A stretch of 64,000 nt of DNA from positions 62,001 to 126,000 of the forward strand of contig DYJC01000004.1 in NCBI GenBank assembly GCA_020723305.1, read 5' to 3'. The notes beneath the pieces were generated by a model that was given only the letters and a program-made list of their open reading frames with translations, made no database searches and was not told where the DNA came from. The first letter of the stretch is position 1. The number at the start of each line of letters is the position of its first letter. Below, in pieces: positions 1 to 38,853 of the stretch. A program made the position numbers and the translations under genes. This DNA is from Desulfosudis oleivorans. Its GTDB lineage: Bacteria; Desulfobacterota; Desulfobacteria; Desulfobacterales; SURF-7.

Positions 1-1722
1 TTTTCCGGCAACCTGTTTATGCTTTTTTTCATTTCCAGGATCATAAAAACAGAAATAGATCTGCCTGCCATCCGGGTGTTCTGCAGCAATATCAATAGTG
101 GGAAAATTCTTGTCATGAGAATGCAACGCTTCCGGCCGGATCTCCCTGTCTGCTTCAGACCAATCAAACTGATTTGGTTCTGCAAAAACAATCCTATACC
201 CGTCTTTTGCAAGGATTGTCTCCAGCAAGATCAGACATAATCTGTTGTATGCCTTCTGATTTTCCGATGCTTCAGATAAAAGTCTTACCATCGCTGACTG
301 GATAGGATGGGGAAATTGTGTTTCATGAAGAGAAACCGCTTTTGTATTTTTATCGGAAGGCTCCGGGCCTGGCCTTCTGTTGTTTCGGCGGGTCCGGACA
401 AGAAAGCCATATTTTTCAGCCTCTGTTTTTCCCTGTTTCTTTTTCCGGCAAGGAATCAGACTTTTTACCGATTCCAACTCCTGCAATTCATATCCAGCCG
501 CAGAAGACCTATCCTGCAAAGCCTCCCAGGTCTCTTTTTTTGAAGCACGATAGGAAAGAATGATCCGGCAGGAATCATCCGTGCTTGCCGCTATCTTTTC
601 CAGCAGTTTTTGAAACGGTTCAAGATTATCCTCAATGGATTGTAATTCTGTATTCCAGAACCGTTTTTGATCCACTCCTTTACGCAGCCAGGCTCCCTGA
701 AATTCAGAAGCAGACAGACAAATGCCTGCCTGATCCCCAGGCGGATCCAAAAAAACATGGGTAATTTTCGGCCTCTGTGGGAATGGAAATTCCAGGCAAT
801 CTGAATGGATGATGGTTACATGGTCATCCGTATCCTCGAAAGCCTTTATTGAATCCGAAAACCGAACAAAAGACAATAATGCGTTTGTTGTTTTTTTGTT
901 CTGCATCCACTGTTCAAATTGATCTTTAAATGCTTTCCAGACGTTCACTTCCAATGAAACAGAAGCTTTTCGAATTCCCGGAATCTCTGCATCTGATATT
1001 GGATTGGATGAATTTCCGGATATCCCTTGTGTGATACATTGAAACAAAGTGGAAATGAAAACAGATTGAAAAAACTCCCGGCTTTTTTTCATGGAAATGC
1101 TGTTGATTCCATGAAACAGGTCAGCCAGAGATGCCAGATTCCGCTGTGTAAACTGGTCATGGATATAATATGAATTTTTGCTTCCCGTGCCTTGAATTTT
1201 TTTCCTGGGGAACCAGTTTTCAGGCGATGTTCTGGACTGTGTAATCTGCCGTCTGACCTGTGAATCGGTTAATCGCTCTGTCCCTTTGAATCCGCAATTG
1301 ATGCAGGCTGCCTGAACCGCATCCGGACGGATTTCATCTTCCCTGCCCTCTGTACTTTTCCAAATTAACTGCTCAAACCCGATCTTTTTACCGCATCCAG
1401 GGCATAAAATGGTGTATCGATCACAGATTCTGTCTGCAACAGCTTCCCGGACGCTTTGAAACTCTTCTCTTAAAGCAAACAGCCCCATTGGCTGAAGCAG
1501 AACCCGTGTCAATAAAACAGCCATTGGGTTCAGATCTCCGGCAACAACCCGGGCACCTTGCTGCAAGGCAACAAGCGCCGGTATACCGGCTCCGCAAAAA
1601 GGATCCAGAACAAGATCACCGGTTTTTACATCTGAAAAAAGCAGATCCAGAACACTGGTTTGACTTTGTTCCCAATATGGAAGGGAACAGGATAAATGAT
1701 CCGATACTCTTTTTTTTCCCAT
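1..1722 (-). CDS. Zn-ribbon DNA methyltransferase, 3' end cut by window edge
   Basis: This minus-strand frame is open for 574 codons from an ATG at 1722 to base 1, so the C-terminus lies outside the window. About residues 41-47 read DPFCGAG, the S-adenosylmethionine-binding motif I of N6-adenine/N4-cytosine DNA methyltransferases. It is followed by a GDLNP-type second strand near residue 62. Two CxxC pairs (CPGC near residue 107, CINC near 140) form a probable zinc ribbon, as in the Zn-ribbon methylases of the DUF1156/COG1743 type. A following QFTQRNLASL stretch also fits that family. The probable catalytic motif IV reads DPPGDQ, whereas the family usually has DPPY, so activity is uncertain. 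The product could be a modification enzyme of a restriction or anti-phage system, but its downstream partner genes are not visible. The family call is fairly safe; the target base is unknown. Confidence 0.75.
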   Translation of the reverse strand, partial: MGKKRVSDHLSCSLPYWEQSQTSVLDLLFSDVKTGDLVLDPFCGAGIPALVALQQGARVVAGDLNPMAVLLTRVLLQPMGLFALREEFQSVREAVADRICDRYTILCPGCGKKIGFEQLIWKSTEGREDEIRPDAVQAACINCGFKGTERLTDSQVRRQITQSRTSPENWFPRKKIQGTGSKNSYYIHDQFTQRNLASLADLFHGINSISMKKSREFFQSVFISTLFQCITQGISGNSSNPISDAEIPGIRKASVSLEVNVWKAFKDQFEQWMQNKKTTNALLSFVRFSDSIKAFEDTDDHVTIIHSDCLEFPFPQRPKITHVFLDPPGDQAGICLSASEFQGAWLRKGVDQKRFWNTELQSIEDNLEPFQKLLEKIAASTDDSCRIILSYRASKKETWEALQDRSSAAGYELQELESVKSLIPCRKKKQGKTEAEKYGFLVRTRRNNRRPGPEPSDKNTKAVSLHETQFPHPIQSAMVRLLSEASENQKAYNRLCLILLETILAKDGYRIVFAEPNQFDWSEADREIRPEALHSHDKNFPTIDIAAEHPDGRQIYFCFYDPGNEKKHKQVAGK

Positions 1723-5979: not shown

Positions 5980-6101
5980 ATCGTACTCCTTTTTCAGAAA
6001 GAAAACGTTTGATTAATGCCTCTTTTTTACTACTTTTGCAGATCGAAAAAAAAAGATTACAGAATAGGCATTGGTCACTGACATCCATTTGCCGGATGAC
6101 C

Positions 6102-6701
6102 TTAAATCTCCCAGAAAATACCTTTGGGACCGGCATTCACAACGGTTGTGTTTCCTATCTTTGCATGACTTCCTGCACTTTCATGAATATGTCCGCAGAC
6201 ACATAATAATGGATTCTTTTCAAGGATTGTTTCCCGAATCGCCTGGCTCCCGAAACTTTGACCGGAAGAAGATATATCTACCGCTCCTTTTGGCGGGGAA
6301 TGAGTGACCAGTATACATTTCTGAGGAGATTCGGAAAGCAGCTTTGTCGCTTCCTGTTCTGTAAAATCATAGCTCCAATCGCCAAAAGGGGTTACAGGAA
6401 TGCCACCGCCGACACCATAAAATTGAACCCCCAGCAATTCAATCCCGCTTCCGTGAAGCACTGTGGCATTCTCCCATCCCTGACAAGCGTTTTCAAGCTC
6501 TTCCCGGCTTTCGCTGTTGCCAGGTACCAGGATTGTGGGTTTCTGAATCTCCCTGAATGCATCAATGGTTTCCCGGAGCCCTTTTCGAACCAGTCCGAAA
6601 TCACCGGCGCCGATAACCACATCCACAGATGAGGATTTTCGGACCAATTCTCTGCAATGCTTTATACTGCAATGAACATCACTGAATAACAGCAGCTTCA
6701 T
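6102..6701 (-). CDS. Calcineurin-like metallophosphoesterase
   Basis: This is a small 199-residue cytoplasmic phosphoesterase. The family metal-binding motifs appear in order: DVH at 8-10, GAGDFG at 31-36, GNSES at 61-65 (the usual form is GNHE), H134 in THSPP, and GHIH at 170-173. The size fits the YfcE/MJ0936-like single-domain phosphodiesterases. It has no signal peptide. An AGAGGTGAT ribosome site lies directly upstream of the ATG. It sits 122 bases upstream of the metallo-beta-lactamase-fold gene on the same strand, and the two may be cotranscribed. The natural substrate cannot be read from sequence. Confidence 0.85.
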   Translation of the reverse strand: MKLLLFSDVHCSIKHCRELVRKSSSVDVVIGAGDFGLVRKGLRETIDAFREIQKPTILVPGNSESREELENACQGWENATVLHGSGIELLGVQFYGVGGGIPVTPFGDWSYDFTEQEATKLLSESPQKCILVTHSPPKGAVDISSSGQSFGSQAIRETILEKNPLLCVCGHIHESAGSHAKIGNTTVVNAGPKGIFWEI

Positions 6702-6797
6702 ATCACCTCTCTCGATTCATCTATCGAATTTCGATAATCTCCTGTAATAAGCAATTTTTCGTAAAACAATTTCTACTATCGATCATAGATCTATGAG

Positions 6798-10433: not shown

Positions 10434-11201
10434 CTAATCAAAAACTTTAGCATCCTCTTTATAAAGCAATATGCTGATTCTTCTGTTTTTAGAGTCAAAG
10501 GGATCTGTATTTTTTAAAGGTTTTTCAGATGCATAGCCGGAGACCCTTTTGATACGATTGGAGGCTATCCCGACTTGATTCATAATTCGCCTGACTGTAG
10601 AGGCCCTTTCAACAGAGAGTTCCCAATTTGTATATTGATCGCTGCTATACCGTACCGCATCGGTGTGACCTTCAATGGCGATTTTATTCTTAAGGTCTTT
10701 GATTCCGATCCCGATTTCCGATATTATTTTTTTCCCTATTTCTGTGGGAGCTGCGCTGCCCGAATCAAACAGCGCTTTGTTTTCCTTATGCGTGGCCTCG
10801 ATTCGCACCCCTAGCTCGAATACCTCAACAATAATCTGATCTTTCAACTCTTTCAGTTTTTCTTCAACATGCTCATTCACAATCATTGCAACTTCTTCAT
10901 CGCTAGTGGTATCCCCTATGGTTGCGCTTTGGTGTTCCGGGGGAATCTGCTCAGTTGTTCCTGGCACATCGGATACGCCTTGAGAATCGAACAAACTGAA
11001 TTCCTTGAAATATCCGGATAAATGTTCCTTCTGTTCCTTGGAAGCCGCAGACATGAGCCACATCAATAAAAAAAAGGCCATCATCGCCGTAACAAAGTCG
11101 GCAAAGGCGACTTTCCAGCTTCCTCCATGATGTCCGCCATGCCCGCCTTTGTTTACTTTTTTAATGATGATGCTCTTTTTCTCTTTTTCTTCTTTGCTCA
11201 T
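10434..11201 (-). CDS. motB: Flagellar motor stator protein MotB
   Basis: This 255-residue stator subunit has a lysine- and histidine-rich cytoplasmic N-terminus. A single membrane helix (about 33-52) carries the proton-binding aspartate D35 in FADFVTAMMAFF. A C-terminal OmpA-like peptidoglycan-binding domain (about 135-250) includes IAIEGHTDA and a downstream NRRISI. It anchors the stator to the cell wall while ion flow through the MotA/MotB pair drives flagellar rotation. It overlaps motA by four bases, which implies translational coupling. No other flagellar genes are in the window, so this is an isolated motAB pair. Confidence 0.95.
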   Translation of the reverse strand: MSKEEKEKKSIIIKKVNKGGHGGHHGGSWKVAFADFVTAMMAFFLLMWLMSAASKEQKEHLSGYFKEFSLFDSQGVSDVPGTTEQIPPEHQSATIGDTTSDEEVAMIVNEHVEEKLKELKDQIIVEVFELGVRIEATHKENKALFDSGSAAPTEIGKKIISEIGIGIKDLKNKIAIEGHTDAVRYSSDQYTNWELSVERASTVRRIMNQVGIASNRIKRVSGYASEKPLKNTDPFDSKNRRISILLYKEDAKVFD

Positions 11202-12055
11202 TTCTTTTCACCTTTTATGGCACCTTCCAATTCGATAAACGAAGGCCGTTCATGCTCAGGAATCGCTCTTCTGGCTGCTTCCACAACCAGGGATGGATGC
11301 CAGGTGTGTGAGAAAGCGATCAAAGCGGTTTTAATGACATGAAAAATAATCGCATTATCATGATTCAGTTTTTCCAAAAGGGAGGCCATGGGGCCGAGAA
11401 AACCATAGCAACCAAGGATCCCCAGAAAAGTTCCTACCAGAGCGGCACCGATGCTGTGCCCCAGGACTTCCGGTGGTTCATTGATTTTACCCATCGTGAT
11501 AACAATCCCCAGAACAGCCGCAACAATTCCAAGGCCCGGCAGCGAATCCGCCACAGAGGTTATTGCCTTGGGATAGGACTCTTCATCCATATGAAGGGCC
11601 TCCAGATCGATCTCCATCAAACTTTCAAACACATGAGGCTCCGGTGTCGTAGCGATATAAATCTTCAGATTATCGCAGATAAAATTCAGTATTTCATGAT
11701 GTTTGATGATATTCGGGAATTTTTCAAAAACTTTGCTTTTCTCCGGACTATTGATGTGCTCCTCTAAACTGATCAGACCATCTTTTCTTGCCATCATGAA
11801 CAGCTCATTGAAAAGCAGCAACACCTCGAGATATTCTTTTTTTGTTCTGGTTTTGCCTGTAAATACATGGCCAATTCTTTTCAGCGTTCCGATAGCTGTT
11901 TTTTGGGGATTGGCTATCAGGAAAGAACCCAGTGCCGCTCCGCCGATGATAACCAATTCAGCCGGCTGAAACAGAACAGAGAGGTTACCCTTCTCCATAA
12001 GATAACCACCTATTATCATTCCAATAACGACAACAATCCCAATAATGGCAAACAT
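11198..12055 (-). CDS. motA: Flagellar motor stator protein MotA
   Basis: This 285-residue inner-membrane stator protein has four membrane helices: two near the N-terminus (about 3-20 and 30-48) and two in the second half (about 165-185 and 195-220). A cytoplasmic loop between them is the part that contacts the rotor in this family. PGLGIVAAVLGIVITMG and the following GAALVGTFLGILG are typical of MotA/ExbB-type channel helices. An AAGGA ribosome site lies about 10 bases upstream. It is the first gene of motAB. Confidence 0.95.
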   Translation of the reverse strand: MFAIIGIVVVIGMIIGGYLMEKGNLSVLFQPAELVIIGGAALGSFLIANPQKTAIGTLKRIGHVFTGKTRTKKEYLEVLLLFNELFMMARKDGLISLEEHINSPEKSKVFEKFPNIIKHHEILNFICDNLKIYIATTPEPHVFESLMEIDLEALHMDEESYPKAITSVADSLPGLGIVAAVLGIVITMGKINEPPEVLGHSIGAALVGTFLGILGCYGFLGPMASLLEKLNHDNAIIFHVIKTALIAFSHTWHPSLVVEAARRAIPEHERPSFIELEGAIKGEKK

Positions 12056-12380
12056 GGTGTTGAATTTCCTTTTGATTACGTTTGGTTTTCAGGGTTGATT
12101 TGACGAAAATTAGCTTTGAAGCAAAATACTTGATCCAATTTATGGACATTATGACATTTTCTTCACAAAAAAGAAAGCAAGAAAATGAATGTTTGACAAC
12201 CAAATGAAATTATTTATATAAGAGCCAATTTCAATTGACTTCCGGATTACCATTTTTTATGATCAGCCTGCTCATTCGGACAAGTTCAACCGGAAGCGCA
12301 TCTTGACCCGGGGTTATGATTAGAAGATATTTGTAAGGCTCGTGTTTTTCTTTTCCACTCGAATCAATAGGAGGCTCTGA
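12056..12380. other. Divergent intergenic region between motA and the LolA-like gene
   Basis: This 325-base non-coding gap must hold promoters for motAB (leftward) and the LolA-like gene (rightward). The motA-proximal half is AT-rich. A candidate rightward promoter is listed separately. No flagellar sigma-28 consensus was recognised. Confidence 0.5.
12303..12331 (+). promoter_or_regulatory. Candidate promoter for the LolA-like gene
   Basis: TTGACC (12303-12308), a 17-base spacer and GATATT (12326-12331), about 50 bases before the start codon. The -10 is weak (4/6). Confidence 0.3.
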
Positions 12381-13124
12381 ATGGTTTTGAGACGTTCGAT
12401 TCTTGTTATCGCATTTACGGTTCTTTTTTATGTTCAATCCGCATTCGCATTGACCGGCAGGGAAATCATGGACAAATCGGATGCTTTGCCCGAATCAAAA
12501 ACTGCCCAGAGCAAGGTACTGATGTTTATTCATAATGCTGACAGCCGGATTGAAAAGGAATTCGAAATCCTGTCCAAAAAATACCCTGATGATGAAAACA
12601 AAACCCTGATCTCTTTCATCCGTCCCACCAAGATCAAACTTCTCACACATGCCCATAAAATCCAGGATGACGATCAATGGCTGCGCCTCTCTTCAGGAAA
12701 AGCCAAACGAATCGCACAGGCAGATAAAGGCAAACCCTTTGTCAACAGCCATTACTACTATGAAGACCTCTCGGACCGGGATATTGATGACTTTGACTAT
12801 CAATATACCGGGGACGACAAGGCCGTGGGCGTGGACTGCTACAAGGTTGAAGCAATCAAGAAAAAGAACCGGGTCTATTCCAAGACCATTCTCTATGTGC
12901 GTAAATCGGATTATTATATCGTTCGCATCGACTTCTATAAAAAAGAAAAATTCCTCAAGTTCCTCGAAAATAAGGACGTTCGGACTGTTGACGGAATCCT
13001 GACGCCGTTTCATGTGGTGATGTCCCTGGCTGACGGCCAAGGCAATACCGAACTCAAGGTCCAGTCCGTGGAATACAATAAGGACGTAAAGGACAGTGAC
13101 TTAAGCAAAGAAGCCTTGAGGTAA
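12381..13124 (+). CDS. LolA-like outer-membrane lipoprotein-sorting protein
   Basis: This 247-residue protein has a Sec signal peptide (about 1-23, ending SAFA). The mature part resembles the LolA-like group (PF17131 type) found beside RND or MmpL-like transporters: repeated beta-strand stretches, a DDQWLRLSSGKAKRI segment and a KTILYVRKSDYYIVRIDFY segment. The family is thought to bind lipids or lipoproteins in the periplasm. The ribosome site is AGGAGG seven bases upstream. It converges with the lipoprotein gene at 13136 with only 11 bases between stops. Functional association with the DUF1302-like porin opposite is suggested by how often these families co-occur, not by shared transcription. 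Confidence 0.78.
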   Translation: MVLRRSILVIAFTVLFYVQSAFALTGREIMDKSDALPESKTAQSKVLMFIHNADSRIEKEFEILSKKYPDDENKTLISFIRPTKIKLLTHAHKIQDDDQWLRLSSGKAKRIAQADKGKPFVNSHYYYEDLSDRDIDDFDYQYTGDDKAVGVDCYKVEAIKKKNRVYSKTILYVRKSDYYIVRIDFYKKEKFLKFLENKDVRTVDGILTPFHVVMSLADGQGNTELKVQSVEYNKDVKDSDLSKEALR

Positions 13125-13135
13125 TGCAGGCGTTA

Positions 13136-13987
13136 TCACACTTTCTTGCCTGAAAAAAGGACGGTCCGGTCAAGGAGGTGAGGGCCGTCCGTTACATTCA
13201 CGGTTTTCGGAAAATAGTAATACCTGAAAAACCAGATGGACTGCCCGTAAAACCCAACATTTTCTCCGGTATCCGGAATACCATTGCGGTCCACATCCAG
13301 CCAGGCCAGAATAAAAACATTTTCAATCGGTGCATCATATCCATAGGGAAGGATGGGCATTTCATACTCCAGGTTGGATTCACCCTTGTCCATTTGCCGG
13401 TAACCGACAATGGCGGACGGATTCAAGGTCGAGAAATCCGAAGACACAAACTCCCCGGCATAGGCGATAAGGATCAGATTTCCCGTATCATCCCCCTTTA
13501 CCGTTCCCGCAACCTCAGCTTGAAAATTAAAAATTTCCCGGTCAATATGAATATTTATATCGCCGGTTTCCCCTTCCTGAAGTTTCAGACCAGCGGAAAG
13601 AGTGGTTGCATTGACGTAGATGCCGATAAAATCTCCTGGATCAGGATATGGCAGACCCTGACGGTAGTTCATATCCACAAAAGCCGCCAGCATTACCGTA
13701 TCCCCGGCTGTCAGACCTTTATCGGTAAGGTCGATATGGAAGGTCAGCTGGTCATGATCGACAGGGATGTATGCGATCATAGTGCCCATGGGATCCGTCT
13801 GAATCCGATTCAGCTCCCCCACCCGGATCACCGCAACCAGTATGGGCTTGTCCGGATGATCCATGATGGCTTGTCCGCTGACGGTTCCGGACAGAGAAAG
13901 AGATGGCGGTGCCGACGGTTCTCCGCAGCCGGTTATGCTTGCTGCCATGATAATCACCAGCAGTTTCATGGCATATCTAATATTCAT
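13136..13987 (-). CDS. Predicted lipoprotein, function unknown
   Basis: This 283-residue protein has a short signal sequence and a lipobox ending ITGC near residue 21, so it is probably a periplasm-facing lipoprotein. The mature region is beta-rich with two halves that look alike, each beginning with a GTVSG- or GTVKG-like strand and a line about value or transport. This suggests two immunoglobulin- or carboxypeptidase-regulatory-like modules. A DVDRNGIPDTGENVGFYG stretch resembles a calcium-binding aspartate loop. Its start overlaps the end of the porin gene by 11 bases and GGGAGC precedes the ATG, so the two are cotranscribed. I do not recognise a named family. Confidence 0.7.
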   Translation of the reverse strand: MNIRYAMKLLVIIMAASITGCGEPSAPPSLSLSGTVSGQAIMDHPDKPILVAVIRVGELNRIQTDPMGTMIAYIPVDHDQLTFHIDLTDKGLTAGDTVMLAAFVDMNYRQGLPYPDPGDFIGIYVNATTLSAGLKLQEGETGDINIHIDREIFNFQAEVAGTVKGDDTGNLILIAYAGEFVSSDFSTLNPSAIVGYRQMDKGESNLEYEMPILPYGYDAPIENVFILAWLDVDRNGIPDTGENVGFYGQSIWFFRYYYFPKTVNVTDGPHLLDRTVLFSGKKV

Positions 13988-23918: not shown

Positions 23919-26870
23919 CTATGTGAGATTCTCCTGTTTGATTGCTATACTTTTGATCAATTCATGTGCGATATTGTAACTTTGGATGCGCATCATGCTT
24001 TCCTGGGCGTTTCCATAACTGAAAAGATTGATACTGCCGTACCACACGATTTTTTGATCCATGACGGCAAATTTTTGATGAATATTGGATCTGAATACCA
24101 CATGAATCGAATGGGTTTTCAATAGATCGAGAGTACTTTCCAGGGCTGATTGATCCTCCGGTTTGAAATCCGCTAACGGACGGGTTACGATTATCACCCT
24201 GACGTGCCTTGCCATTGCCGGACGTAAATGCTGAATCATCTGAACTGTACGCCTTTTCCGGATAAACGGACTAACGATGATGATCTCTTTTTGTGCTCCA
24301 ACGATATCCTGATTGAAAACCGGTAAAAAATTATTCTTGTCAAAAATAATTTCCACCGGCGCTGACGGAATGTCATCACCTTTGGTTTTGTATCCCATGG
24401 AAGCATAGCCATTCAGCCGCTTCTGGTACATTCTTTCCAGCATTTTTATCTGGATATCCACGTAATCATAGATCCGCACCTCCTTTTTATCCCGGAACAA
24501 CCGGTGAAGCCTGCCTGCATATTGCTGCAACGTTCCTTTCCAGGATATCGGCATGGTGAGAAAAAGCGTATCAAGCCGGGGCTCATCAAAACCTTCCCCG
24601 ATGAAATGACCCGTTGCTACCAGAACAAGATGCTTGTCATCCGGTGTTTCGGCAATACGATGGAAAAGTTCCCGCGTTGTTTTGGCACCCATGCCGCCTG
24701 TCAACGTCACGACATCCGGAACCTCTTTTTGAATTTTCTCTGTCAATAACTCCACATGAGCGGTTCGCAGGGACAACACGAGGCAATTTCTTCCGCGCCG
24801 ATAATTGGCCACCACATCTTCCACAATCTGCTGATTGCGCATTTCATTATCCACCATCGCCGCATATACATCCTGGATGGATACATCCTTTTCATCAAGA
24901 TATAGCGGAATCCGCAGGGAGGTAAAACGGGGAAGGATATAGTGTTCAAAAGGTCTTTTTCCCGCTTGCTTTTTAGCATCATCGCGATACCGAATCGAGC
25001 CGCAATGCATAAAAAGGATGGGTTGGTGTCCATCTTTCCGCGTCGGTGTCGCGGTAAGACCGTAAATATATTTCGCTGTTGCGGTTTTTAAAATGTTTTC
25101 ATAACTGAAAGCGGATGCATGATGGCATTCATCGGCAATGATCATTCCGTAATTCCGGACACACTCCTTGACTTCACCCTGTCGGCTGAGCGATTGTATT
25201 ACCGCGATGTCCACGATTCCGCTCGGCGCGTTTTTCCCCGCCCCCATTTGACCCACCAGGCTGATCTGTTTCTTTCTCCCGCGCTTTTTAGCCGCATCCG
25301 GTTCCGGTTCCGGCAGACGCTCATGGATGGTCAGGAATTGCTCCAGCTTTTCCTTCCATAGGGACAATAAATTGACTTTATCCACCAGAATGAGGGTGTT
25401 CACCTTCCTCTCGGCCATCAGACAAATGGCCACGACGGTTTTGCCAAAGGCGGTTGTCCCGGACAGAATCCCGGTATCATGCGGCAACAGGTGTTCGAGG
25501 GCCAGGATCTGCTCCTCGCGTAACTCCCCTTTGAACGCCACATCGATTTTTCTTCCGCAATTGGTTTTATCGATAAACCGCACTTCGATCCCGATTTGCG
25601 CCAGTTCATCGGACAGCTCCGGCTCGCATCCCCGTGGCAAACAAAGGAATTCATTGGTTTCATCCGCACAAGAGATCACCCGGTCAAGTCCATAGGTGGA
25701 CAAACGCATGGCTTCGTGCTTGTAAAACATCGGGTTTTTAAAAGATGCCAAGCGTTTCAGCCGGTTCAGCGCCCGTTGGGAAATGTGGGCCTTGGGGATG
25801 AAAAGCATATTGGCCCGCACGATCTCCATACGTTGCGGAAAGTCGGTTTTCTGCAATTCAATTTTGGGGGGTGGGGGTTCCCATGGCTTCCGGCCTTCCT
25901 CGTCTTCTTCCGCAATGGTCAAAACTCCCAGTTCATTTCCGGGGGAAAGCGCCGAGATGAAATTTTGCACGCGATCTTCAGAAATTTTTTTCAGCCCGGA
26001 TAGAAACACCCATTGATCATCATAGGATTGAAAATTTTCGTCAATAAATTCGCTGTTGCCTTTTTCCCTGGCCTCTTTTTGCAGCGGCAAGGCAATTAGA
26101 TTTCCCAGTCCGCCTTTGGGAAGGGTGTCTTGGCTTGGAAACAGCCGGTCATAAGATTTGAATTGGATTTCATGCCTTCTATTCATGGAGCAAGTCAGCA
26201 AAGCGGTACCGAATTTCCTTGCCAGTATGGCGGATATCCGGTCTTCAAAAAAAAACCAGACATGTCCACCTCTCCCGGACCGGGAACGTTCCACTGCGAA
26301 CGGAATCGCAAATTCATTGCAGACGTTCCGTACTGTTGAGATATCATCGCGCCAGGTTCCTTCATCAAAATCCATGGCCAGAAAACAGCAGGTTTCATCC
26401 GGCAACATGGGATAAACGCCCGCGATGATTTTTCCACGCAGATGATTTTCAATGACGTTCTCATCCAATTCTGCATAGGATTTGTTGGTGCATTTGGCGC
26501 AGGAAATTTTGGGCTTGCTGCATACCCCCTCCCGCCATTGATTCAGGCAAACGGGTTGATACCCGGAGGTATCTTTGGTTTTGTTCTCCCAGCGCTTTGC
26601 ATACACATCCTGCCGGCCTTTGAAGAGCGACATGAACAATCTGATTTTTGAAATTGAATCGGATGCGTTATGAATTTCCGGTAGCAAGCAGTTGTCTGTC
26701 ACCTCACCGCAAAAGAAACCTTCATCCGGCATGATTGAGGAGTTGTTCTTTGCCTGAGAAACCGTTTGCATTGATGCAAGCTGGTCTTTCAGCCGCTTAT
26801 TTTCCTCTGTTAAATCCGCCACCTCACGCATTAGAGAAGTATATTTTTCTAGGAGTTCGTTATCATCCAT
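23919..26870 (-). CDS. Primase-helicase-PLD fusion protein (TOTE-type conflict protein)
   Basis: This 983-residue protein has an N-terminal coiled coil (about 3-40), a cysteine knuckle (C108, C117, C124, C127) and an archaeo-eukaryotic primase-like domain. The primase has a DFD metal motif at 167-169 and H203 in SGRGGHVW. A superfamily 2 helicase follows, with Walker A-like GTTAFGKT near 470-477, DECH near 578, GLTATPTR near 600 and QQYAGRLHR near 800. The C-terminus is a phospholipase-D-like nuclease half (HQK...D near 929-936, GSIN near 943). The primase/helicase architecture is the one databases call the TOTE conflict system. It lies 37 bases downstream of an AAA ATPase gene on the same strand. 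A role in defence or mobile-element conflict is inferred. Confidence 0.85.
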   Translation of the reverse strand: MDDNELLEKYTSLMREVADLTEENKRLKDQLASMQTVSQAKNNSSIMPDEGFFCGEVTDNCLLPEIHNASDSISKIRLFMSLFKGRQDVYAKRWENKTKDTSGYQPVCLNQWREGVCSKPKISCAKCTNKSYAELDENVIENHLRGKIIAGVYPMLPDETCCFLAMDFDEGTWRDDISTVRNVCNEFAIPFAVERSRSGRGGHVWFFFEDRISAILARKFGTALLTCSMNRRHEIQFKSYDRLFPSQDTLPKGGLGNLIALPLQKEAREKGNSEFIDENFQSYDDQWVFLSGLKKISEDRVQNFISALSPGNELGVLTIAEEDEEGRKPWEPPPPKIELQKTDFPQRMEIVRANMLFIPKAHISQRALNRLKRLASFKNPMFYKHEAMRLSTYGLDRVISCADETNEFLCLPRGCEPELSDELAQIGIEVRFIDKTNCGRKIDVAFKGELREEQILALEHLLPHDTGILSGTTAFGKTVVAICLMAERKVNTLILVDKVNLLSLWKEKLEQFLTIHERLPEPEPDAAKKRGRKKQISLVGQMGAGKNAPSGIVDIAVIQSLSRQGEVKECVRNYGMIIADECHHASAFSYENILKTATAKYIYGLTATPTRKDGHQPILFMHCGSIRYRDDAKKQAGKRPFEHYILPRFTSLRIPLYLDEKDVSIQDVYAAMVDNEMRNQQIVEDVVANYRRGRNCLVLSLRTAHVELLTEKIQKEVPDVVTLTGGMGAKTTRELFHRIAETPDDKHLVLVATGHFIGEGFDEPRLDTLFLTMPISWKGTLQQYAGRLHRLFRDKKEVRIYDYVDIQIKMLERMYQKRLNGYASMGYKTKGDDIPSAPVEIIFDKNNFLPVFNQDIVGAQKEIIIVSPFIRKRRTVQMIQHLRPAMARHVRVIIVTRPLADFKPEDQSALESTLDLLKTHSIHVVFRSNIHQKFAVMDQKIVWYGSINLFSYGNAQESMMRIQSYNIAHELIKSIAIKQENLT

Positions 26871-26907
26871 ATTTTTTCATAGGCCTGTCTGAAATCGGGA
26901 GTGCCGG

Positions 26908-28134
26908 TCATTGAACATCGTTGTTCTCCTTTTGTCTTAAAATATATTTCCCTATCAACGGAACAGCAAATGAATATTTACCATGTCTATTCTTATATAC
27001 TAGGCCTGCGTTACTAAGCGTGACAAGCATCTGGTTCACATGGCTATTGCTAAATCCTTTTTCAATCTCTTTTTTTGAATGTTCAACAATTTCTTGCACT
27101 GTGAACTCTGAATCACAATTTTCTAACGTTGCTATTACATATAGTAGCTCCCTTTGCCTATCGGTAGCTCTGGCCCACCTGCCGGCAAAAAAATCAGTAT
27201 CCAGTTTTCGCACAATTCCATCAACTGGAATGCTAAGGTCTTCTCCTCTACCGTCTAGTTGAATTATCAAATCATAAACTTCTTTACATATAAATTGAAT
27301 AAAATAAGGATATCCACCAGACAGATTGATAATATTGTCTATCGATTTTTCAGAAAGTTTAACGGGACACTCATCATTTTCAATAGGCTTTATGATAGCC
27401 TCCCTGCTATCCTCTGAATTTAGCTTATCAAGAAAAACGACCCTAAACATTCTCTCAGCATATGTTCTCGCTTCCACTAGTTTAGGGAATAATGTTGGTA
27501 GTCCTGTAAGAATCAGCATAAAAGGGATGTTCTGTCGTTGAATAGATTGAAAGACATCCAGCAATAAAGACAATGGATATTGCTCTTTATTAGCATTGTC
27601 AGACATGGTTTGTGCTTCGTCATAAGCAAAAATAAGCCCGCGCGCTCCAAAATTTTTTAAAAATTCCCAAGCCGTTTGTAATGTGGATTTTAACTTGTCT
27701 GAAATCAAACCAGGGGTTGTATTAAAAATATCTAATAGTACGTTATAGTTAAGCTTTTCCTGTACTCCTATTTTTGTTCCTGTAAAACCGGGTTGTTGTT
27801 TTTCATACTGACTAATGGGAAAGTTAGATGTTACAAGAGATAAATCCGTTAGTATCCTTTTCGATAGCATTTCCTCGCTGACACTCGTGGATTCAGAAAG
27901 ATCAGTACTTGTCCACAGCCATTTATTTTTAAATGCTAATGGTTTCAGGGTTTCCAATAAAACTGTTTTTCCGACACCACGAAGTCCCGTAAGAATCATA
28001 TTTTCCAAAATGACATCTTGTCTCAGTAATTTTAGATATTCATTCGTTTCTTCATGCCTTCCTGCAAGATATGGGGGCATGTGACCAGCACCCGGACGGA
28101 ATGGGTTTATAATTTCGCAATTTTTGGTCATCAT
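26908..28134 (-). CDS. AAA+ ATPase with C-terminal winged helix
   Basis: This 408-residue ATPase has Walker A GLRGVGKT at 50-57 and Walker B LIFAYDEAQT near 168-177. An arginine-finger-like region follows and the C-terminus is a winged-helix-like segment (about 300-400; SHVNQMLVTLSNAGLVYK). The overall plan resembles Orc/Cdc6-like and archaeal-ATPase-type AAA proteins common on mobile elements. The gene is clearly more AT-rich than its neighbours, which suggests transfer. It leads a two-gene operon with the primase-helicase-PLD protein and has its own strong promoter. A GGAGG ribosome site lies six to nine bases before tandem ATGs. It may sense or load the partner enzyme on DNA (inference). 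Confidence 0.8.
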   Translation of the reverse strand: MMTKNCEIINPFRPGAGHMPPYLAGRHEETNEYLKLLRQDVILENMILTGLRGVGKTVLLETLKPLAFKNKWLWTSTDLSESTSVSEEMLSKRILTDLSLVTSNFPISQYEKQQPGFTGTKIGVQEKLNYNVLLDIFNTTPGLISDKLKSTLQTAWEFLKNFGARGLIFAYDEAQTMSDNANKEQYPLSLLLDVFQSIQRQNIPFMLILTGLPTLFPKLVEARTYAERMFRVVFLDKLNSEDSREAIIKPIENDECPVKLSEKSIDNIINLSGGYPYFIQFICKEVYDLIIQLDGRGEDLSIPVDGIVRKLDTDFFAGRWARATDRQRELLYVIATLENCDSEFTVQEIVEHSKKEIEKGFSNSHVNQMLVTLSNAGLVYKNRHGKYSFAVPLIGKYILRQKENNDVQ

Positions 28135-28150
28135 TTTCCACCTCCTTAAC

Positions 28151-28177
28151 TATAAATTTATATTTATGAATAAATAT
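28151..28177. promoter_or_regulatory. AT-rich palindromes in the AAA operon leader
   Basis: TATAAATTTATA (28151-28162) is a perfect palindrome. ATATTTAT and ATAAATAT (28160-28167, 28170-28177) form a second one that overlaps the promoter -10. They are candidate operator sites for autoregulation, though simple AT-richness could also produce them. Confidence 0.4.
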
Positions 28178-28203
28178 ATAAATAATTATAAATTTATTGT
28201 CAA
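28175..28203 (-). promoter_or_regulatory. Strong sigma-70-like promoter for the AAA/primase-helicase operon
   Basis: On the minus strand, TTGACA (28198-28203), a 17-base spacer and TATATA (28175-28180) are close to consensus, 41 bases upstream of the AAA start. Confidence 0.65.
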
Positions 28204-28351
28204 TAATAAAATAATAAATTTTTATTACCAGATATAAATATCGAAATAAATAGAGGCGGGATTCTTTTCTTGTTATCTGATGAAAGGCGGCGGGGGTTGT
28301 TTTGTAACGACTGTTGTCTATGACACGAAGTAAGTATCCAAATTATGGTTT

Positions 28352-28393
28352 CCGGCTTTCGCCGGAATGACGGGCAGTATTATTACCGTCATT
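28352..28393. repeat. Double hairpin downstream of the RND-TolC gene
   Basis: CCGGC/GCCGG (28352-28356, 28361-28365) is followed at once by AATGACGG/CCGTCATT (28366-28373, 28386-28393), both perfect. The text resembles the dispersed 'cgccggaatgacgg' repeats common in such genomes and may help end transcription or protect mRNA. Nothing else was seen in 28204-28472. Confidence 0.55.
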
Positions 28394-28472
28394 CCTGACT
28401 TTGATCCAGCTTTAACTACATGTCCTGGCCCGTTTCAGGATATTGTTTCAAAAAATTGTATGGCAAATTATT

Positions 28473-31400
28473 TCATCTGGTCTCCGGAGAGAGAGGAAGG
28501 GTTCCCATCACCCATTGGAAGGTTACCCTGGCAACCAGATAATCCCGCCGCGCTTTGGCCAGATTTGCCTTGGCCTGTTTAAGAGACAACTGGGCATCCT
28601 GGACATCCGAAGTGGTTTTGACACCCCAGACAAATCCTTTTTCCGCCATATCCGAAAGCCGTTCCGCCTGGGTCACGACTCCGCTGAGCGCTTTCAGAAT
28701 TTCGCCGGATTCTTTCAGTGCGCTGACGGATTCCGATGCCTGAAGCCGGATATTGTCCTTTAACTTTTCCGACTGAAGCCGGAGTGTATGAAGTTCACTT
28801 TTGCTCTGGGCTACCTTGCCTCTGGTCCTAAGTCCGTCAAAAAACGGAAAGGTCAACACAACGGCTCCGGATGCCAGCTCTCCGTCCGCGCTGCTCTCTT
28901 CGATGGTCAGATCCTGCCATCCATAGGATGCCTGAAGGTCGATACGCGGCTTGTCCTGGGCATTGTATACTGTTACCACTTCCTCCTGCATTCCGATTTT
29001 ATGTTGCAGTTCGGAAAGCTCGGGGCGATTCTTAATTGCCGCATCTGCCGCGGCATGAACATCCTCTAAAGGATCGATTTCCGCCTCCAGGACTCCCTGG
29101 ATCTCAAAATCTTTTCCTTCCAGCCCCAGAAGAATTCCCAGACGCTCTTTGGAGATGATCAATAAATTTTCCGTCTGAATCACTTCCGGACGGGCATTCC
29201 CTACGGCCACATCCGCAGAAAGCGTATCGTAATCCGTGGCCGTGCCCGCAGCATATTTGCGCCGGGCTTCGTCCAGATGGCGGATCTTCTGCTCCATGTT
29301 CTGACTCGCAATGGTTTTCAACTCCCTTGCCAGCAACACATCATAAAACGCGGTGCTGACATCCCTCGCAACCGCCTGCCGGTACATCTTCATCTGATCA
29401 TCCGCTGTTTTCAAGCCGATTTCCGCAGCCCGAATCGCGGCACCGATCTGCCCCCATGTATAGAGCGGTTGATTGAGGGTGATCTGTGCGCCATAGGCTC
29501 TTTGGGAAATCGGATAATCTGCGGACAACGCCCGCTGTGTTTCATCCCGGCCCATCATTCCGGTTCCGATAAAACTCAGTTTGGGAAGTGCTGCCGCACG
29601 TTCTTCCACATACCGTCCCTCAACCAGATTGCGGTATTCCATCGCCATCTTGAGGTCTTTGTTTTTCTCTGCCGCCAGTTTCAGGGCTTCATCCAGACAG
29701 ATGACCCGGAGATCGGAAGCGAATACCGGACCGGCGTTCAGAAGCAGGGTCAACAGGATAAATACCGCTATGACGGAATGGACCGCTGCAGCATGACCTG
29801 ACTTCTTCCCTACCCATTTGCGATGGGCCCAGGCCCCGAAATCATCCAAAAAGGTGTACATGACCGGAACAACCAGCAATGTCAACAAGGTCGAGGTGAT
29901 CAATCCTCCGATAACCGCCCTGCCCATGGGAGCACGCATTTCCGCTCCGGCCCCAAGACCCAATGCCAAGGGCAGCATTCCGAAGATCATTGCAAGGGTG
30001 GTCATCATGATCGGCCGCAGCCGGGTACGTCCGGCAGTAATAACAGCTTCCCGGCGGTTCATTCCGCCAGCCCGGAGAATTTTACTGTAGTCCACCAGCA
30101 GAATCGCATTTTTGGTTACCAGTCCCATGAGCATGATCAATCCGATCAGGGATATGATATTGATGGCATCTCCGGTAAGCCAGAGCATGGCCGCCATTCC
30201 GACGATGGAAAGGGGCAGTGAGAACATGATGGCAAACGGTTCAATAAAGGATTCAAACTGCGCTGCCAGAATCAGGTATACGAAAACCACAGCCATAATC
30301 AAGGCTTCCGCCATGTACATGAAGGATTCCACCATATCTTCCGCCTCACCGGAGAATCCAAGATGATAGCCGTGATCCATATGAACTTCTTCTCCAATGC
30401 GCTTGATTTCCTTCATGGCTGTTCCCATGTCAAGATCTTCGAGGTTTGCTGAAATCTTTACTTCCCGGATCAGATCCCTTCGATTGATCTCGGAAGGAGT
30501 GGCGCCGATGACATAGGTGACCAGATCCCCCAACTGAATCAGGGAAGAGGAAGCACCGGCCCTCCTCACGGCCAGACGCAGCTTCTCCACCTGGGATGGG
30601 TCCTGCCGCAATTCTTCCGGCAGCCTTACCCGGACATTGACCGCATCTCCGTCTTCATCCTCATACGTGGTGGAGGCTTCTCCTCCTACCATTGCACCGA
30701 CCGTCCGGACAATATCTCCGGTGGTAACACCCGCGTCCGTAGCCCGCTCGCGATTGACAATCAGACAGAATTCGGGTGTATCGTCCTCCATGGTGACTTC
30801 CAGATCGATCACACCCTGAATTTTATACAATTCTTTTTTCATCCGGGCAGCATATTTTTTTAACAGATCGATCTCCTCGCCCCGGATGCTGAATTCCATC
30901 TTCTTGGCTCCATGAAGTCGTCCGGCTTCAATCACCGAAAACTGGATTCCCGGTATGTTCTCCAAATTCTTGCGGATATCACTTTGAACCTGCATCTGGG
31001 ATCGACTGCGTTCTTTTTTGTCTTTAAGCTTCACATAAACCAATCCGTCCCGAACGGTTCCGGAATCTCCTGCGCCGATGGTGGAGTAGGTGTGCTGGAT
31101 TTCAGGATAGGATCGCAGCAATTCCAGAACGGATTTGATCCGCAATTGTGTTTCATCAAATGACGCATCCGGGGCGGTTTTCAGAATAATCTGGAACTCA
31201 GCCCGGTCATAGTCCTGCAAGAAAGAGGACGGCAGGGATTTAAAGATAAAAATCCCTCCAAAGAAAACGATTGCTGCAATTAGCAGCACGGTTTTGCGAT
31301 GATCCAGAGACCACTCGATCATGCCCCGGTACCGGTCCGCGCTTCGATCAAATGCATCATTGAATATATCCAGCATCCGTGCAATAAAATGCCGCTTTCC

Positions 31401-32888
31401 TTTCCGCTCGATATCCGGGTCATACCATCGTGAGGACATCATCGGATCCAGGGTAAATGAAACCAGCAGGGATACCAGTACCGCAAAAGTCACGGTGATT
31501 CCGAACTGGAAAAAAAACCGCCCTACAATTCCTTTCATGAACGCCACCGGCACAAAAACCGCCACAATCGAAAAGGTGGTCGCCAATACCGCCAGCCCGA
31601 TTTCGCTTGTTCCATCCCGTGACGCCTGAAAATGATCCTTGCCCATCTCCAGATGGCGCACGATGTTTTCCCGCACCACAATCGCATCGTCAATCAGCAT
31701 ACCGATGGCCAGAGAGAGTGCCATCAGGGTCATGATATTGAGCGACATGTTCATGAAGTTCATTACGACAAACGAAGAAATGACGGAAATAGGCAGGGTC
31801 AGACCGGTGATGACCGTGGATCTCCAGGAGTTCAAAAACATGAAAACAATAAGGATCGTCAGAATCCCTCCCTCAATCATGGTTTTCTGAACATCATGCA
31901 CGGAGTCGCGAATCATGACGGAACCATCCCGCACCACCTCAATGGTGACTCCCGGCGGCATCTCCTTCTGCAGGCCGGCGATGATTTTTTTGACTGTATC
32001 CACCACCTCCACGGTGTTGGCTCCGGATTGTTTCAGAATATTCAGACCCACCGCCGGAACACCGTTGACCAGCGCCAGGGTACGTTGTTCCTCGATTCCA
32101 TCTTTGACATCCGCCACTTCCGACAATTTTATCGGACGATTGTTGCTTTCACCGATCACCATGGTCTTGAACTGCTCTACCATGTCGGGCTTGCCGGATA
32201 CGCGCAAGGGGTATTCGGAATTACCGCGCTTGAGCCTTCCTAAAGGAGTGTTGACATTCTCAGACTGTAACCCGGCAATCACCTGATCCACGCCCATTCC
32301 AAGGGCTTCAAGCCTTGCAGGATCGATATTCACGCTGACTTCGCGTTTTAACAAACCAACCAGATCCACTTTGCCGACTCCGGAAATGCTCTCCAGCCGC
32401 CTTTTAACCTTTTTTTCAACCAGTGTTGAGAGGTCTCTGGGGGGAAGTTTGTCTGAACGCACGCCCAGTGAGATAATCGGCATGGCGGCAAAATCAAGTT
32501 TCTGGATAATCGGCTCTTCTACGGTTTCCGGAAGATCTCCCCGGATACCGTTAATTTTGGCACGCACATCCTGGGCCGCGTCATTCACCCGGATTTCCAG
32601 CCGGAATTCCACAACCACGGTGGATACGCTTTCCCGTGAAACCGACATGACGTGCTTGACACCGGAAATGGGGTTGACTGCTTCTTCAATCCGCTTGGTT
32701 ACTTCTCGCTCTACTGTCTCCGGAGAAGCCCCTTCATATTTGGTCACAATTGAAACCACCGGAATTTCCACATCCGGATACATATCCACGGACAATCGCC
32801 GGTATGAAAAAATACCCAAGGTCACCAAAGCAAGCATCAGCACAGTAGCGAACACGGGTCGTTTAATGGAAAGATCGGATAAAAGCAT
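28473..32888 (-). CDS. RND efflux permease fused in frame to a TolC-type channel
   Basis: This 1471-residue protein is unusual. Residues 1 to about 1020 are a complete resistance-nodulation-division pump: twelve membrane helices, two large periplasmic loops, and the proton-relay pair in LIDDAIVV near 405. From about 1032 to 1055 comes a hydrophobic stretch ending AGPVFA, which looks exactly like a Sec signal peptide. Residues 1056-1471 are a full TolC-type channel with two repeats. No stop codon, and no in-frame ATG or GTG with a ribosome site, separates the two parts. The channel may be released by signal peptidase after synthesis, or stay tethered. The adaptor gene lies three bases upstream, so one operon encodes a whole tripartite pump. 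The substrate is unknown; the permease looks MdtBC/HAE1-like. Confidence 0.88.
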   Translation of the reverse strand: MLLSDLSIKRPVFATVLMLALVTLGIFSYRRLSVDMYPDVEIPVVSIVTKYEGASPETVEREVTKRIEEAVNPISGVKHVMSVSRESVSTVVVEFRLEIRVNDAAQDVRAKINGIRGDLPETVEEPIIQKLDFAAMPIISLGVRSDKLPPRDLSTLVEKKVKRRLESISGVGKVDLVGLLKREVSVNIDPARLEALGMGVDQVIAGLQSENVNTPLGRLKRGNSEYPLRVSGKPDMVEQFKTMVIGESNNRPIKLSEVADVKDGIEEQRTLALVNGVPAVGLNILKQSGANTVEVVDTVKKIIAGLQKEMPPGVTIEVVRDGSVMIRDSVHDVQKTMIEGGILTILIVFMFLNSWRSTVITGLTLPISVISSFVVMNFMNMSLNIMTLMALSLAIGMLIDDAIVVRENIVRHLEMGKDHFQASRDGTSEIGLAVLATTFSIVAVFVPVAFMKGIVGRFFFQFGITVTFAVLVSLLVSFTLDPMMSSRWYDPDIERKGKRHFIARMLDIFNDAFDRSADRYRGMIEWSLDHRKTVLLIAAIVFFGGIFIFKSLPSSFLQDYDRAEFQIILKTAPDASFDETQLRIKSVLELLRSYPEIQHTYSTIGAGDSGTVRDGLVYVKLKDKKERSRSQMQVQSDIRKNLENIPGIQFSVIEAGRLHGAKKMEFSIRGEEIDLLKKYAARMKKELYKIQGVIDLEVTMEDDTPEFCLIVNRERATDAGVTTGDIVRTVGAMVGGEASTTYEDEDGDAVNVRVRLPEELRQDPSQVEKLRLAVRRAGASSSLIQLGDLVTYVIGATPSEINRRDLIREVKISANLEDLDMGTAMKEIKRIGEEVHMDHGYHLGFSGEAEDMVESFMYMAEALIMAVVFVYLILAAQFESFIEPFAIMFSLPLSIVGMAAMLWLTGDAINIISLIGLIMLMGLVTKNAILLVDYSKILRAGGMNRREAVITAGRTRLRPIMMTTLAMIFGMLPLALGLGAGAEMRAPMGRAVIGGLITSTLLTLLVVPVMYTFLDDFGAWAHRKWVGKKSGHAAAVHSVIAVFILLTLLLNAGPVFASDLRVICLDEALKLAAEKNKDLKMAMEYRNLVEGRYVEERAAALPKLSFIGTGMMGRDETQRALSADYPISQRAYGAQITLNQPLYTWGQIGAAIRAAEIGLKTADDQMKMYRQAVARDVSTAFYDVLLARELKTIASQNMEQKIRHLDEARRKYAAGTATDYDTLSADVAVGNARPEVIQTENLLIISKERLGILLGLEGKDFEIQGVLEAEIDPLEDVHAAADAAIKNRPELSELQHKIGMQEEVVTVYNAQDKPRIDLQASYGWQDLTIEESSADGELASGAVVLTFPFFDGLRTRGKVAQSKSELHTLRLQSEKLKDNIRLQASESVSALKESGEILKALSGVVTQAERLSDMAEKGFVWGVKTTSDVQDAQLSLKQAKANLAKARRDYLVARVTFQWVMGTLPLSPETR

Positions 32889-37768: not shown

Positions 37769-38380
37769 TCAACTATGCACGGATTGCTGTTCATAATATT
37801 TATCCTCATACCAGCTCAGTGGATTATTCACAATATAGTCAGATATTTTAAAGTATGATCTTTCATCCCGGATAATATGTTCAAAATAATTTCGTTGCCA
37901 TAATTTTTTGTTAAACCGAGGCCATCCATAATTTGCAACCCCATCAGCATATTGTTTTGTTGTCAATGTTTTAAATCGATGAACAATATCAGGCAATGAC
38001 CTCGTAGGGGCAACCCCCTGTGGTTGCCCTTCTTCACGTGGTTGCCGCGTATTATTGTCAACATGTGGAAAAGGGCAGGCACAGGGGCCTGCCCTTACGG
38101 GATCGTTATTTGACAGAATTTGAATGATACCATGAATATGGTTGGGCATGACAATTAGTTCATGAACATCAAATCCTTGATAATACGCTGGTATGTCATC
38201 CCACGCTTTTTTTACTATGTTGCCGGCAGGATTTAATGTTATTGCATCGTTTTGGATTTCACCAAACAAGCATAAACGATTTTGGATACAAATAGTAATA
38301 AAATATAATCCTGCGCAGGAGTAATCATAATTTTTTAGCCGGATTGAACGTCGGTGATGCATATCAGGTATGTATTGCAT
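37769..38380 (-). CDS. REP-associated tyrosine transposase (RAYT, IS200-like)
   Basis: This Y1-transposase-fold protein of about 203 residues shows the RAYT text RRSIRLKNYDYS, YFITICIQ, and HELIVMPNHIHGII carrying the HUH-like His-x-His. The C-terminal LWQRNYFEHIIRDERSY holds the nucleophile tyrosine. RAYTs move or maintain REP palindromes in the host genome. The start at 38380 has AGGA five bases upstream. Remarkably, residues about 95-130 are encoded by two REP palindromes (38071-38096 and 37988-38050) with the frame kept open, so the variable loop of the protein is itself REP-derived. Matching REPs are found elsewhere in the window. Confidence 0.85.
   Translation of the reverse strand: MQYIPDMHHRRSIRLKNYDYSCAGLYFITICIQNRLCLFGEIQNDAITLNPAGNIVKKAWDDIPAYYQGFDVHELIVMPNHIHGIIQILSNNDPVRAGPCACPFPHVDNNTRQPREEGQPQGVAPTRSLPDIVHRFKTLTTKQYADGVANYGWPRFNKKLWQRNYFEHIIRDERSYFKISDYIVNNPLSWYEDKYYEQQSVHS
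37988..38050. repeat. REP-like 63-base repeat, copy B, inside the transposase gene
   Basis: The partner of 36997-37059 (one mismatch, A at 38036). Hairpin GGGCAACC (38008-38015) / GGTTGCCC (38022-38029). Confidence 0.8.
38071..38096. repeat. REP-like hairpin of a second type, inside the transposase gene
   Basis: Perfect ten-base arms AAGGGCAGGC and GCCTGCCCTT with a six-base loop, translated in frame as part of the transposase. Confidence 0.75.
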
Positions 38381-38853
38381 TTTTTCCTGATGCGGGTTCC
38401 TTGTCAAAGCGATGATTCCGGGCAACCCCGGCATTAACTCCTGATAGTACCATATTATTCTGCTCTAACCATTCATTCACAGGTACCTTTTTCCCTGATA
38501 ATCAATATCAAAAAAAATTCCAGCCACTTTTCTCTGTTTCAATTCTAACCTTGAAGTTTTTGTTACCATGAAAATAAAATATCGCCTGCAATCTCTTGTC
38601 ACTCCCGGTCATCATTTCATTTTGAGCTATCAATGTCAAGCAAATTAGATATGTTATCACGATAGAGTATCGGTCTGGATAATTCACAATTCATCGTAGC
38701 GTTTGCGAAATTCTGGTCTGGATTGAATATTTACACCCCCCCTGGCCCTCCTCAAAATGGGAGTATAAAGAAATTCGTGTAATGAGTTCATGAGAAGAAT
38801 TTGTAAAAAAAACTCAGGAAATAATATAGGATGAACTGAAAAAACGCCGCGCC
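38381..38853. other. Non-coding spacer
   Basis: No coding frame was seen. It carries a C-rich/G-rich dispersed-repeat-like stretch near 38727-38767 (CCCCCCCTGG ... CCTCAAAATGGGAG), similar in style to the hairpin at 46777. Confidence 0.4.

Follow-up and report, generated by a model that had tools for sequence, protein, structure and literature searches.

A primase–helicase–PLD gene of Desulfosudis oleivorans and its apparently exchangeable upstream neighbours

On contig DYJC01000004.1 of Desulfosudis oleivorans (assembly GCA_020723305.1), a gene for a predicted AAA-type ATPase lies 5′ of a gene for a protein that joins a primase, a superfamily 2 (SF2) helicase and a phospholipase D (PLD)-like half nuclease. 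Do these two genes form a fixed system, as the original prediction proposed, or is the ATPase gene only the local neighbour of the other? We analysed the 64-kb stretch that carries both genes (hereafter named the window) together with related loci; the 983-residue AEP-SF2-PLD protein and its gene are called the large protein and large gene, and the 408-residue open reading frame (ORF) the AAA gene. Our results favour, with a probability of roughly 0.6, the reading that the large protein is a self-contained, conflict-type DNA-processing enzyme encoded behind an exchangeable upstream gene. The exchangeable upstream position, which emerged from comparative genomics, is in our view the interesting part of this locus, whatever its meaning may prove to be. 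The two genes are arranged in the window as follows.

23919–26870, minus strand: large gene, AEP-SF2-PLD protein of 983 aa, AEP-TOTE family (ORF and Pfam)
26871–26907, minus strand: 37-bp gap between the AAA gene and the large gene
26908–28134, minus strand: AAA gene, predicted AAA-type ATPase of 408 aa with a putative C-terminal winged helix, the local occupant of the upstream position (ORF and Pfam)
28135–28250, minus strand: AT-rich leader of 12.9% GC with TTGACA-17-TATATA and inverted repeats, suggestive only

The pairing was analysed by tblastn of the AAA protein (E 1e-5) at 91 distinct loci, comprising the window, 24 relatives and 66 further loci, with seven duplicates removed before counting. 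No two of these loci were identical across a 600-base stretch of the large gene, and they are not independent of one another. Upstream DNA of at least 300 bp was available at 90 of the 91 loci and of at least 1300 bp at 77. A homologue of the AAA protein was found at a single locus, the window itself, which rules out a fixed two-gene AAA plus AEP-SF2-PLD system and overturns the fixed pairing that had been predicted. As no homologue was found at the other 90 loci, the AAA gene is a lineage-specific, low-GC neighbour and not a required component of the family. Its lower GC, noted at the outset, was confirmed (36.7%, compared with 47.6% in the large gene and 44.6% across the window; 0.30 compared with 0.53 at third codon positions), as was the spacing of 37 bases. 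The AAA gene was probably acquired, and it may be co-expressed with the large gene. In the genome itself, the AEP-TOTE model and the AAA protein each gave a single match.

A closer view was given by a locus of the same genus (L011), which is collinear with the window. In the window the two genes have a gene for an RND efflux pump on one side and one for an SBF-family transporter on the other. The DNA identity to L011 was 92.7% for the pump gene, 93.2% for the large gene and 94.6% for the transporter gene. The interval between the pump gene and the large gene measures 1607 bp in the window, with the AAA gene, compared with 476 bp in L011 with no detected similarity to that gene, and the shared DNA starts 17 bases before the start codon of the large gene. 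On the other side, a DUF4143/AAA_14 ATPase gene lies between the large gene and the transporter gene in L011 (7543–8760, minus strand) and is absent from the window. Of these two loci, the window alone has the AAA gene and L011 alone the DUF4143/AAA_14 gene at these places, so that the flanking genes vary on either side of the large gene within a single genus, and the large gene is common to both. A search of two other genomes of the genus for an empty site yielded none: neither G001 nor G002 matched the pump gene at E 1e-200, and the G002 contig ends at the 3′ end of the transporter gene.

What, then, do the relatives carry at this position? The nearest upstream ORF was scored at each locus and called close when it was co-directional and within 100 bp; gaps were counted up to the point where the tblastn match begins, several codons off the start codon at some loci. 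A close co-directional ORF was present at 37 of the 91 loci, whereas 51 loci have one further away or on the opposite strand and three have none. Four of the 37 were excluded as ORF artefacts (at L118 the ORF is the 5′ part of the large gene itself, and at L120, L122 and L134 it is short and unsupported). At 24 of the 33 usable loci the upstream gene, whole or in part, is of a toxin, antitoxin, Fic, AlbA, DUF4143 or restriction type. The 33 ORFs comprised AbiEi/AbiEii (10, some of them fragments), DUF4143 (four), Fic, SLFN_AlbA_2, MNT nucleotidyltransferases, restriction enzymes (XhoI and XamI), ParE-like proteins and resolvases (two each) and seven others, namely the AAA gene of the window, a ribonucleotide reductase, a subtilase, two proteasome-like peptidases, a sigma-54-activator-type protein and one without a Pfam match. 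These counts came from Pfam (25 of 29 families listed), and families were assigned to loci from the sequences, our own models and single scans. The ParE-like ORFs matched Pfam below cut-off (E 0.002 and 0.006), one of them being preceded by an Unstab_antitox gene. The peptidase genes lie 30 bp upstream of the large gene at L112 (5355–6113, minus strand) and L119 (1756–2508), with a Pfam Proteasome match of E 0.0011, also below cut-off. Scanning 49 of the 51 other upstream ORFs, leaving out the L011 pump and a 71-aa ORF, gave among the families listed (25 of 44) DUF4143 four times, N6_Mtase, Fic, AlbA_2 and PIN twice each, and RhuM, XhoI, AIPR, AbiEii and others once. It is thus probably the position that recurs, not the partner.

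Downstream neighbours were used as a control, with classification partly by eye. Among the 25 of 87 families listed for 80 of the 82 downstream ORFs (one masked and one short ORF being omitted), Radical_SAM occurred four times, AbiEii and HTH_3 twice each, and N6_Mtase and YhcG once, the rest being mostly metabolic or transport families. The Fisher test of upstream against downstream gave p 0.0004 with the four upstream ORFs dropped and none downstream, p 0.003 with no ORFs dropped, and p 0.006 when five short downstream ORFs were dropped too, all uncorrected for relatedness. On the basis of this contrast, conflict genes lie on both sides of the large gene, and more of them upstream. A corresponding contrast using hidden Markov models (46 of 91 loci upstream compared with 6 of 91 downstream) is biased, because most of the models were built from upstream genes.

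Several of the upstream genes appeared incomplete. Both AbiE genes were recognized before the large gene at L013, L016, L027, L092 and L124, and scars were found elsewhere using models built from neighbour genes. A C-terminal piece of AbiEii stands directly before the start codon at L078, L097 and L117, and more weakly so at L098 (E 0.009 plus motif); AbiEii lacks its middle at L099, and an AbiEii tail was recognized by motif only at L020. AbiEi, whole or as a tail, occurs without an AbiEii match at L017, L088, L089 and L090. L095 retains the tail of a DUF4143 gene (E 0.003 plus motif), L109 has ParE-like fragments and L115 a fragment of a peptidase gene, and at L107 an AlbA tail separates the large gene from a restriction gene. 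No AbiE sequence was recognized upstream of the large gene in the window. We also compared the DNA of 20 chosen pairs of loci. Shared DNA began at about the start codon in L013 (AbiE) and L014 (Fic), with 96.2% identity from +53, in L102 and L126 (from 0) and in L110 and L119 (from +10); in two pairs, L129/L132 (+11 to +2468) and L080/L101 (−9 to +2929), homology was confined to the gene. On the tree described below, at least 14 changes of partner type are needed among the labelled rows. These comparisons show that close relatives carry different upstream modules, many of them decayed.

Several observations weigh against our favoured reading. Other close pairs share upstream DNA (L018/L034, L112/L119, L127/L128, L028/L014 and L097/L099), and a remnant gene was looked for in the 476 bp of L011 and no recognizable scar was found. 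Five of the 22 close co-directional downstream ORFs were conflict-like as well, partly by eye. The large gene itself is broken by a stop or a frameshift at 13 of the 91 loci and so is not always the survivor. Many loci are contigs of metagenome-assembled genomes, in which assembly chimaeras formed at a conserved gene could look like exchange; since L089/L090, L109 and L111–L115 come from genomes in one to three contigs, such joins probably do not account for all of the differences. Finally, the pair in the window is flanked by genes for transporters and not for defence, and a scan of ten ORFs around it found genes of transport, regulation and metabolism and a single IS200-like match, so that its surroundings are not a defence island. 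Support for a conflict role of the kind originally suggested comes from the toxin–antitoxin and restriction genes that often stand upstream in relatives.

The large protein has the following parts (coordinates in the window).

26766–26864, minus strand: long N-terminal helix, residues 3–35, a probable coiled coil (model and consensus)
26490–26549, minus strand: four-cysteine motif C108, C117, C124 and C127 (alignment)
25962–26648, minus strand: AEP primase domain, residues 75–303, with D167, D169 and H203 (Pfam PF22548)
25038–25526, minus strand: first lobe of the SF2 helicase, with Walker A GKT at 476–478 and DECH at 580–583 (ResIII)
24498–24824, minus strand: second lobe of the SF2 helicase, Helicase_C (Pfam)
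23952–24308, minus strand: PLD-like half nuclease with one HKD motif, H931, K933, D938 and G945 (PLDc_2)

Pfam matched AEP-TOTE (PF22548; E 1.5e-101, 339.2 bits against a curated cut-off of 27), ResIII (5.5e-19), Helicase_C (2.7e-6) and PLDc_2 (7.8e-11), and a single HKD motif is present per chain; the predicted fusion of a primase, an SF2 helicase and half a PLD nuclease is therefore correct. Conservation was determined in an alignment of 78 translated ORFs longer than 600 aa out of the 91 loci, the 13 shorter ones being left out, and for the PLD domain in the 55 rows over 850 aa. The primase residues named in the original prediction were kept (D167 78/78, D169 77/78 and H203 78/78), as were those of the helicase (GKT 78/78, DEC 78/78 and H583 76/78) and the PLD domain (H931 52/55, K933 52/55, D938 53/55 and G945 53/55). 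We take D167, D169 and H203 to be the AEP catalytic motifs, and the C-terminus fits what we take to be the PLD motif form, HxK(x4)D(x6)GSxN. The large protein thus holds conserved motifs predicted to serve priming or polymerization, ATP-driven translocation and phosphodiester cleavage. The four cysteines were also kept (C108, C117 and C127 78/78, C124 77/78) and are possibly a zinc knuckle that would bind zinc. The N-terminal helix was modelled with predicted local distance difference test (pLDDT) values of 73–85 per block over residues 1–30, its leucines are conserved in an 18-row consensus, and it may form a coiled coil through which the protein dimerizes. By sequence, the nearest solved relatives were an XPB-II helicase (6p4f, E 1.2e-15) and CAPP (7nqd, E 2.2e-10). 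A model of the large protein of fair quality (mean pLDDT 54.8), which served for domain matches only, returned the same two folds, with a target-normalized TM score of ~0.3 for XPB and E 7e-10 (TMt 0.64) for CAPP (7p9j). PADLOC gave a CRISPR-associated PrimPol model as the best match of the large protein (4e-89), and MkoC (2.1e-13), DrmC (9.3e-7) and DpdK (0.006) for its C-terminal domain. The large gene appears to be under purifying selection, with dN/dS ratios of 0.11–0.36 in 12 pairs and of 0.185 between the window and the same-genus copy.

The family, PLD-less relatives included, was found in 91 of 389 sampled genomes of the class (E<=1e-100), and the AEP-TOTE domain by profile in 28 of 59 relatives. 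In a FastTree tree of the 78 rows, 58 mostly PLD-bearing rows formed one set (support 99). A second set (support 87) holds 19 rows, most of them shorter and PLD-less, and L085 stands alone on a long branch. Plasmid records matching the large protein numbered 231, of which 31 cover at least 80% of the query; these are PLD-less relatives, and the best rows stop near residue 830. Two copies of the large gene (L089 and L090) lie ~77 kb apart in genome G237, with 98.6% DNA identity over 3.1 kb. Viral carriage of the large protein was considered and rejected, as none of 1231 phage-record matches covers 80% of it and the helicase part is what the 20 listed rows align to. No relatives of the AAA or the large protein were found in viral_contigs, a search that reaches close relatives only because exact peptide patterns were used.

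How might such a protein work? Given its intact motifs, the SF2 motor, which resembles XPB, would engage DNA that is single-stranded, forked or bubbled, and the PrimPol domain would prime or fill in. The single-HKD PLD domain would cut once two chains pair, perhaps through the N-terminal helix, and the target may be invading or replicating foreign DNA. In relatives the large gene lies behind AbiE, DUF4143, Fic, AlbA, MNT-HEPN, ParE-like or restriction modules, and in the window behind the predicted AAA/winged-helix ATPase. A bolder version, which we regard as rather unlikely, is a plug-in immune architecture, in which a constant PrimPol-XPB-PLD effector would have many different, unrelated modules, serving as input or guard, swapped in and out of its co-directional upstream position at breakpoints near the start codon; if so, the effector would keep its role while its trigger or safeguard is exchanged. 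The exchangeable neighbour recasts the vague guess of a defence island as a question, namely whether the effector acts alone or whether its neighbours control it, guard it or simply share its address. It also calls for caution with two-gene defence systems named from one genome.

The main rival to a conflict-type enzyme is a DNA-repair enzyme that unwinds, nicks and patches in one chain, like archaeal XPB-Bax1 plus a polymerase, with its neighbours incidental; repair takes this place because XPB, which the motor resembles, has been solved together with Bax1 as a helicase–nuclease. XPB helicases, several of them solved in complex with the Bax1 nuclease, were the best matches by both sequence and fold, CAPP PrimPol came next, and purifying selection on the large gene also speaks for repair. 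However, the patchy presence of the family, the interruption of the gene at 13 loci, the two copies in one genome (98.6% identical), the PLD-less relatives on plasmids and the toxin–antitoxin-rich upstream positions are unlike a housekeeping repair gene. We therefore consider repair unlikely, although it is the alternative that survives best.

Less probable still is that the large gene is a single-gene mobile element, or part of one, that lands behind other genes. Such an element would account for the homology limited to the gene in L129/L132 and L080/L101, but this is also expected from rapid turnover of the flanks, and no terminal repeats or shared end motif were seen by eye in the start and end flanks, where no systematic search was made. 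Recombinase genes point the same way as the gene-only homology: resolvase genes precede the large gene at L030 and L031, a PLD-less relative on a Gemmobacter plasmid (L036) lies beside three annotated tyrosine-recombinase genes in series (10510–13957), and recombinase-like ORFs (4694–7947) downstream of the relative at L025 resemble that series by eye.

To much the same degree we doubt that the effector is kept in place by the upstream toxin–antitoxin or restriction modules acting as addiction guards, a role for which CreTA is a precedent with CRISPR-Cas in the available text of PMC9458426. Varied toxin modules at the same position would suit such guards. At L017, L078, L088–L090, L097–L099 and L117, however, the toxin gene is gone or reduced and the effector kept, the reverse of strict addiction.

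A dedicated two-gene defence or replication-conflict system, in which the AAA ATPase senses or loads and the primase–helicase–PLD protein acts, has become very improbable. In its favour, the genes are co-directional and closely spaced, AAGGAGGTGG precedes the AAA start codon, and a plausible promoter lies 5′ of that. Set against this are the failure to find an AAA homologue at the other 90 loci, the collinear L011 included, the occurrence of AAA-protein matches in 8 of 59 relatives compared with the AEP-TOTE domain in 28 of the same 59, and the two plasmid records with AAA relatives that we examined, which lack an AEP-SF2-PLD neighbour. The promoter with AT palindromes of the original prediction is partly there: TTGACA at 28203–28198 is followed after a 17-nt spacer by TATATA within the 12.9% GC leader, one of three TTGACA-16..18-TATA sites in the window, and inverted repeats are present. 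The evidence is weak, since a promoter scan of 26700–28600, which found 12 promoter-like sites compared with 6.3 ± 2.9 in shuffles, does not list this site, and the chance level of inverted repeats in such AT-rich DNA was not computed.

The small protein itself is weakly assigned as AAA-type with a C-terminal winged helix, from its sequence and a model. It matched AAA_16 (8.5e-6, 26.8 bits, below the curated cut-off of 32.6), ATPase_2 (0.0012) and, for the winged helix, weakly MCM_C (0.013), and its best match among solved structures had E 0.24. An identity as Orc1/Cdc6 was rejected by the NCBI model TIGR02928 (11.9 bits, E 0.075, against a cut-off of 181.3), so the AAA part of the predicted 'Orc/Cdc6-like AAA ATPase' has some backing in the AAA_16 match and the Orc/Cdc6 part is loose. 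The single-sequence model was poor (mean pLDDT 39), only residues 321–400 being readable at pLDDT 61–84 per block. Among the 59 relatives, the best match outside its own genome was at 1.3e-24, and its plasmid relatives showed 27.5–29.5% identity among the 30 rows listed of 103 records.

Least likely of all is a complete TOTE conflict system (TPR, OB, TBP and Effector, as spelled out in the available text of PMC12458937, citing Aravind, Iyer et al. 2022), which shares the AEP-TOTE domain, because no TBP match (PF00352) was found in any of 59 genomes, the window's own and the 28 with AEP-TOTE included, by a search that detected TBP in four control archaea and could miss a divergent one, and because no TPR or OB/cold-shock gene was among the ten ORFs scanned around the large gene, the other loci not being searched with a cold-shock model.

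The surroundings of the pair showed some further features. The RND pump neighbour is a single ORF of 1471 aa (window 28473–32888, minus strand) with ACR_tran (AcrB-type) at residues 4–1014 and OEP at 1280–1457. The outer-membrane channel domain OEP is joined to the RND pump in the L011 ORF as well, whereas the open frame of the pump match in a family relative (G006) is 1044 aa long. A Y1_Tnp match, of the IS200-like transposase family, lies at 37769–38434 (minus strand). Low-GC stretches occur elsewhere in the window at 45001–46000 (0.30) and 57001–63000 (0.37–0.40).

How does the large protein compare with known systems? It belongs to the AEP-TOTE domain family, which is known and linked to conflict but has received little study, and its membership of a TOTE system is unlikely. 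Our literature search, to which many subscription papers were outside the scope, found no account of a primase–helicase–PLD gene with exchangeable upstream modules and no tested function for the PLD-bearing form. The most prevalent non-CRISPR form of CAPP_A has a PrimPol followed by a helicase, and its homologues are typically in mobile elements, according to the available text of Zabrady et al. 2021 (PMC8211822). The large protein resembles helicase-type CAPP_A and these non-CRISPR homologues in this order, and its AEP domain is closest to the solved CAPP domain. It differs in the fused PLD domain; the main text of PMC8211822 does not contain 'PLD' or 'phospholipase', and neither does that of a paper on mobile-element primases (PMC5862659). 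It also falls far below the cut-off of the NCBI equivalog for CAPP_A type A1, PrimPol_Msp (90.8 bits compared with 200), and no Cas families were among the ten ORFs scanned around the large gene, no genome-wide Cas search having been made. Like archaeal XPB-Bax1, it couples an XPB-like SF2 motor to a nuclease, but this nuclease is a fused PLD half domain and not Bax1, and a primase is added. Its C-terminal domain matches the PLD-like defence proteins MkoC, DrmC and DpdK, with the difference that here the PLD domain is the C-terminus of a primase–helicase. Lastly, the AbiEi-AbiEii modules, which are type IV toxin–antitoxin systems, fill the upstream position in relatives, whole or decayed, whereas in the window, where no AbiE was recognized, this place is taken by the AAA ATPase.

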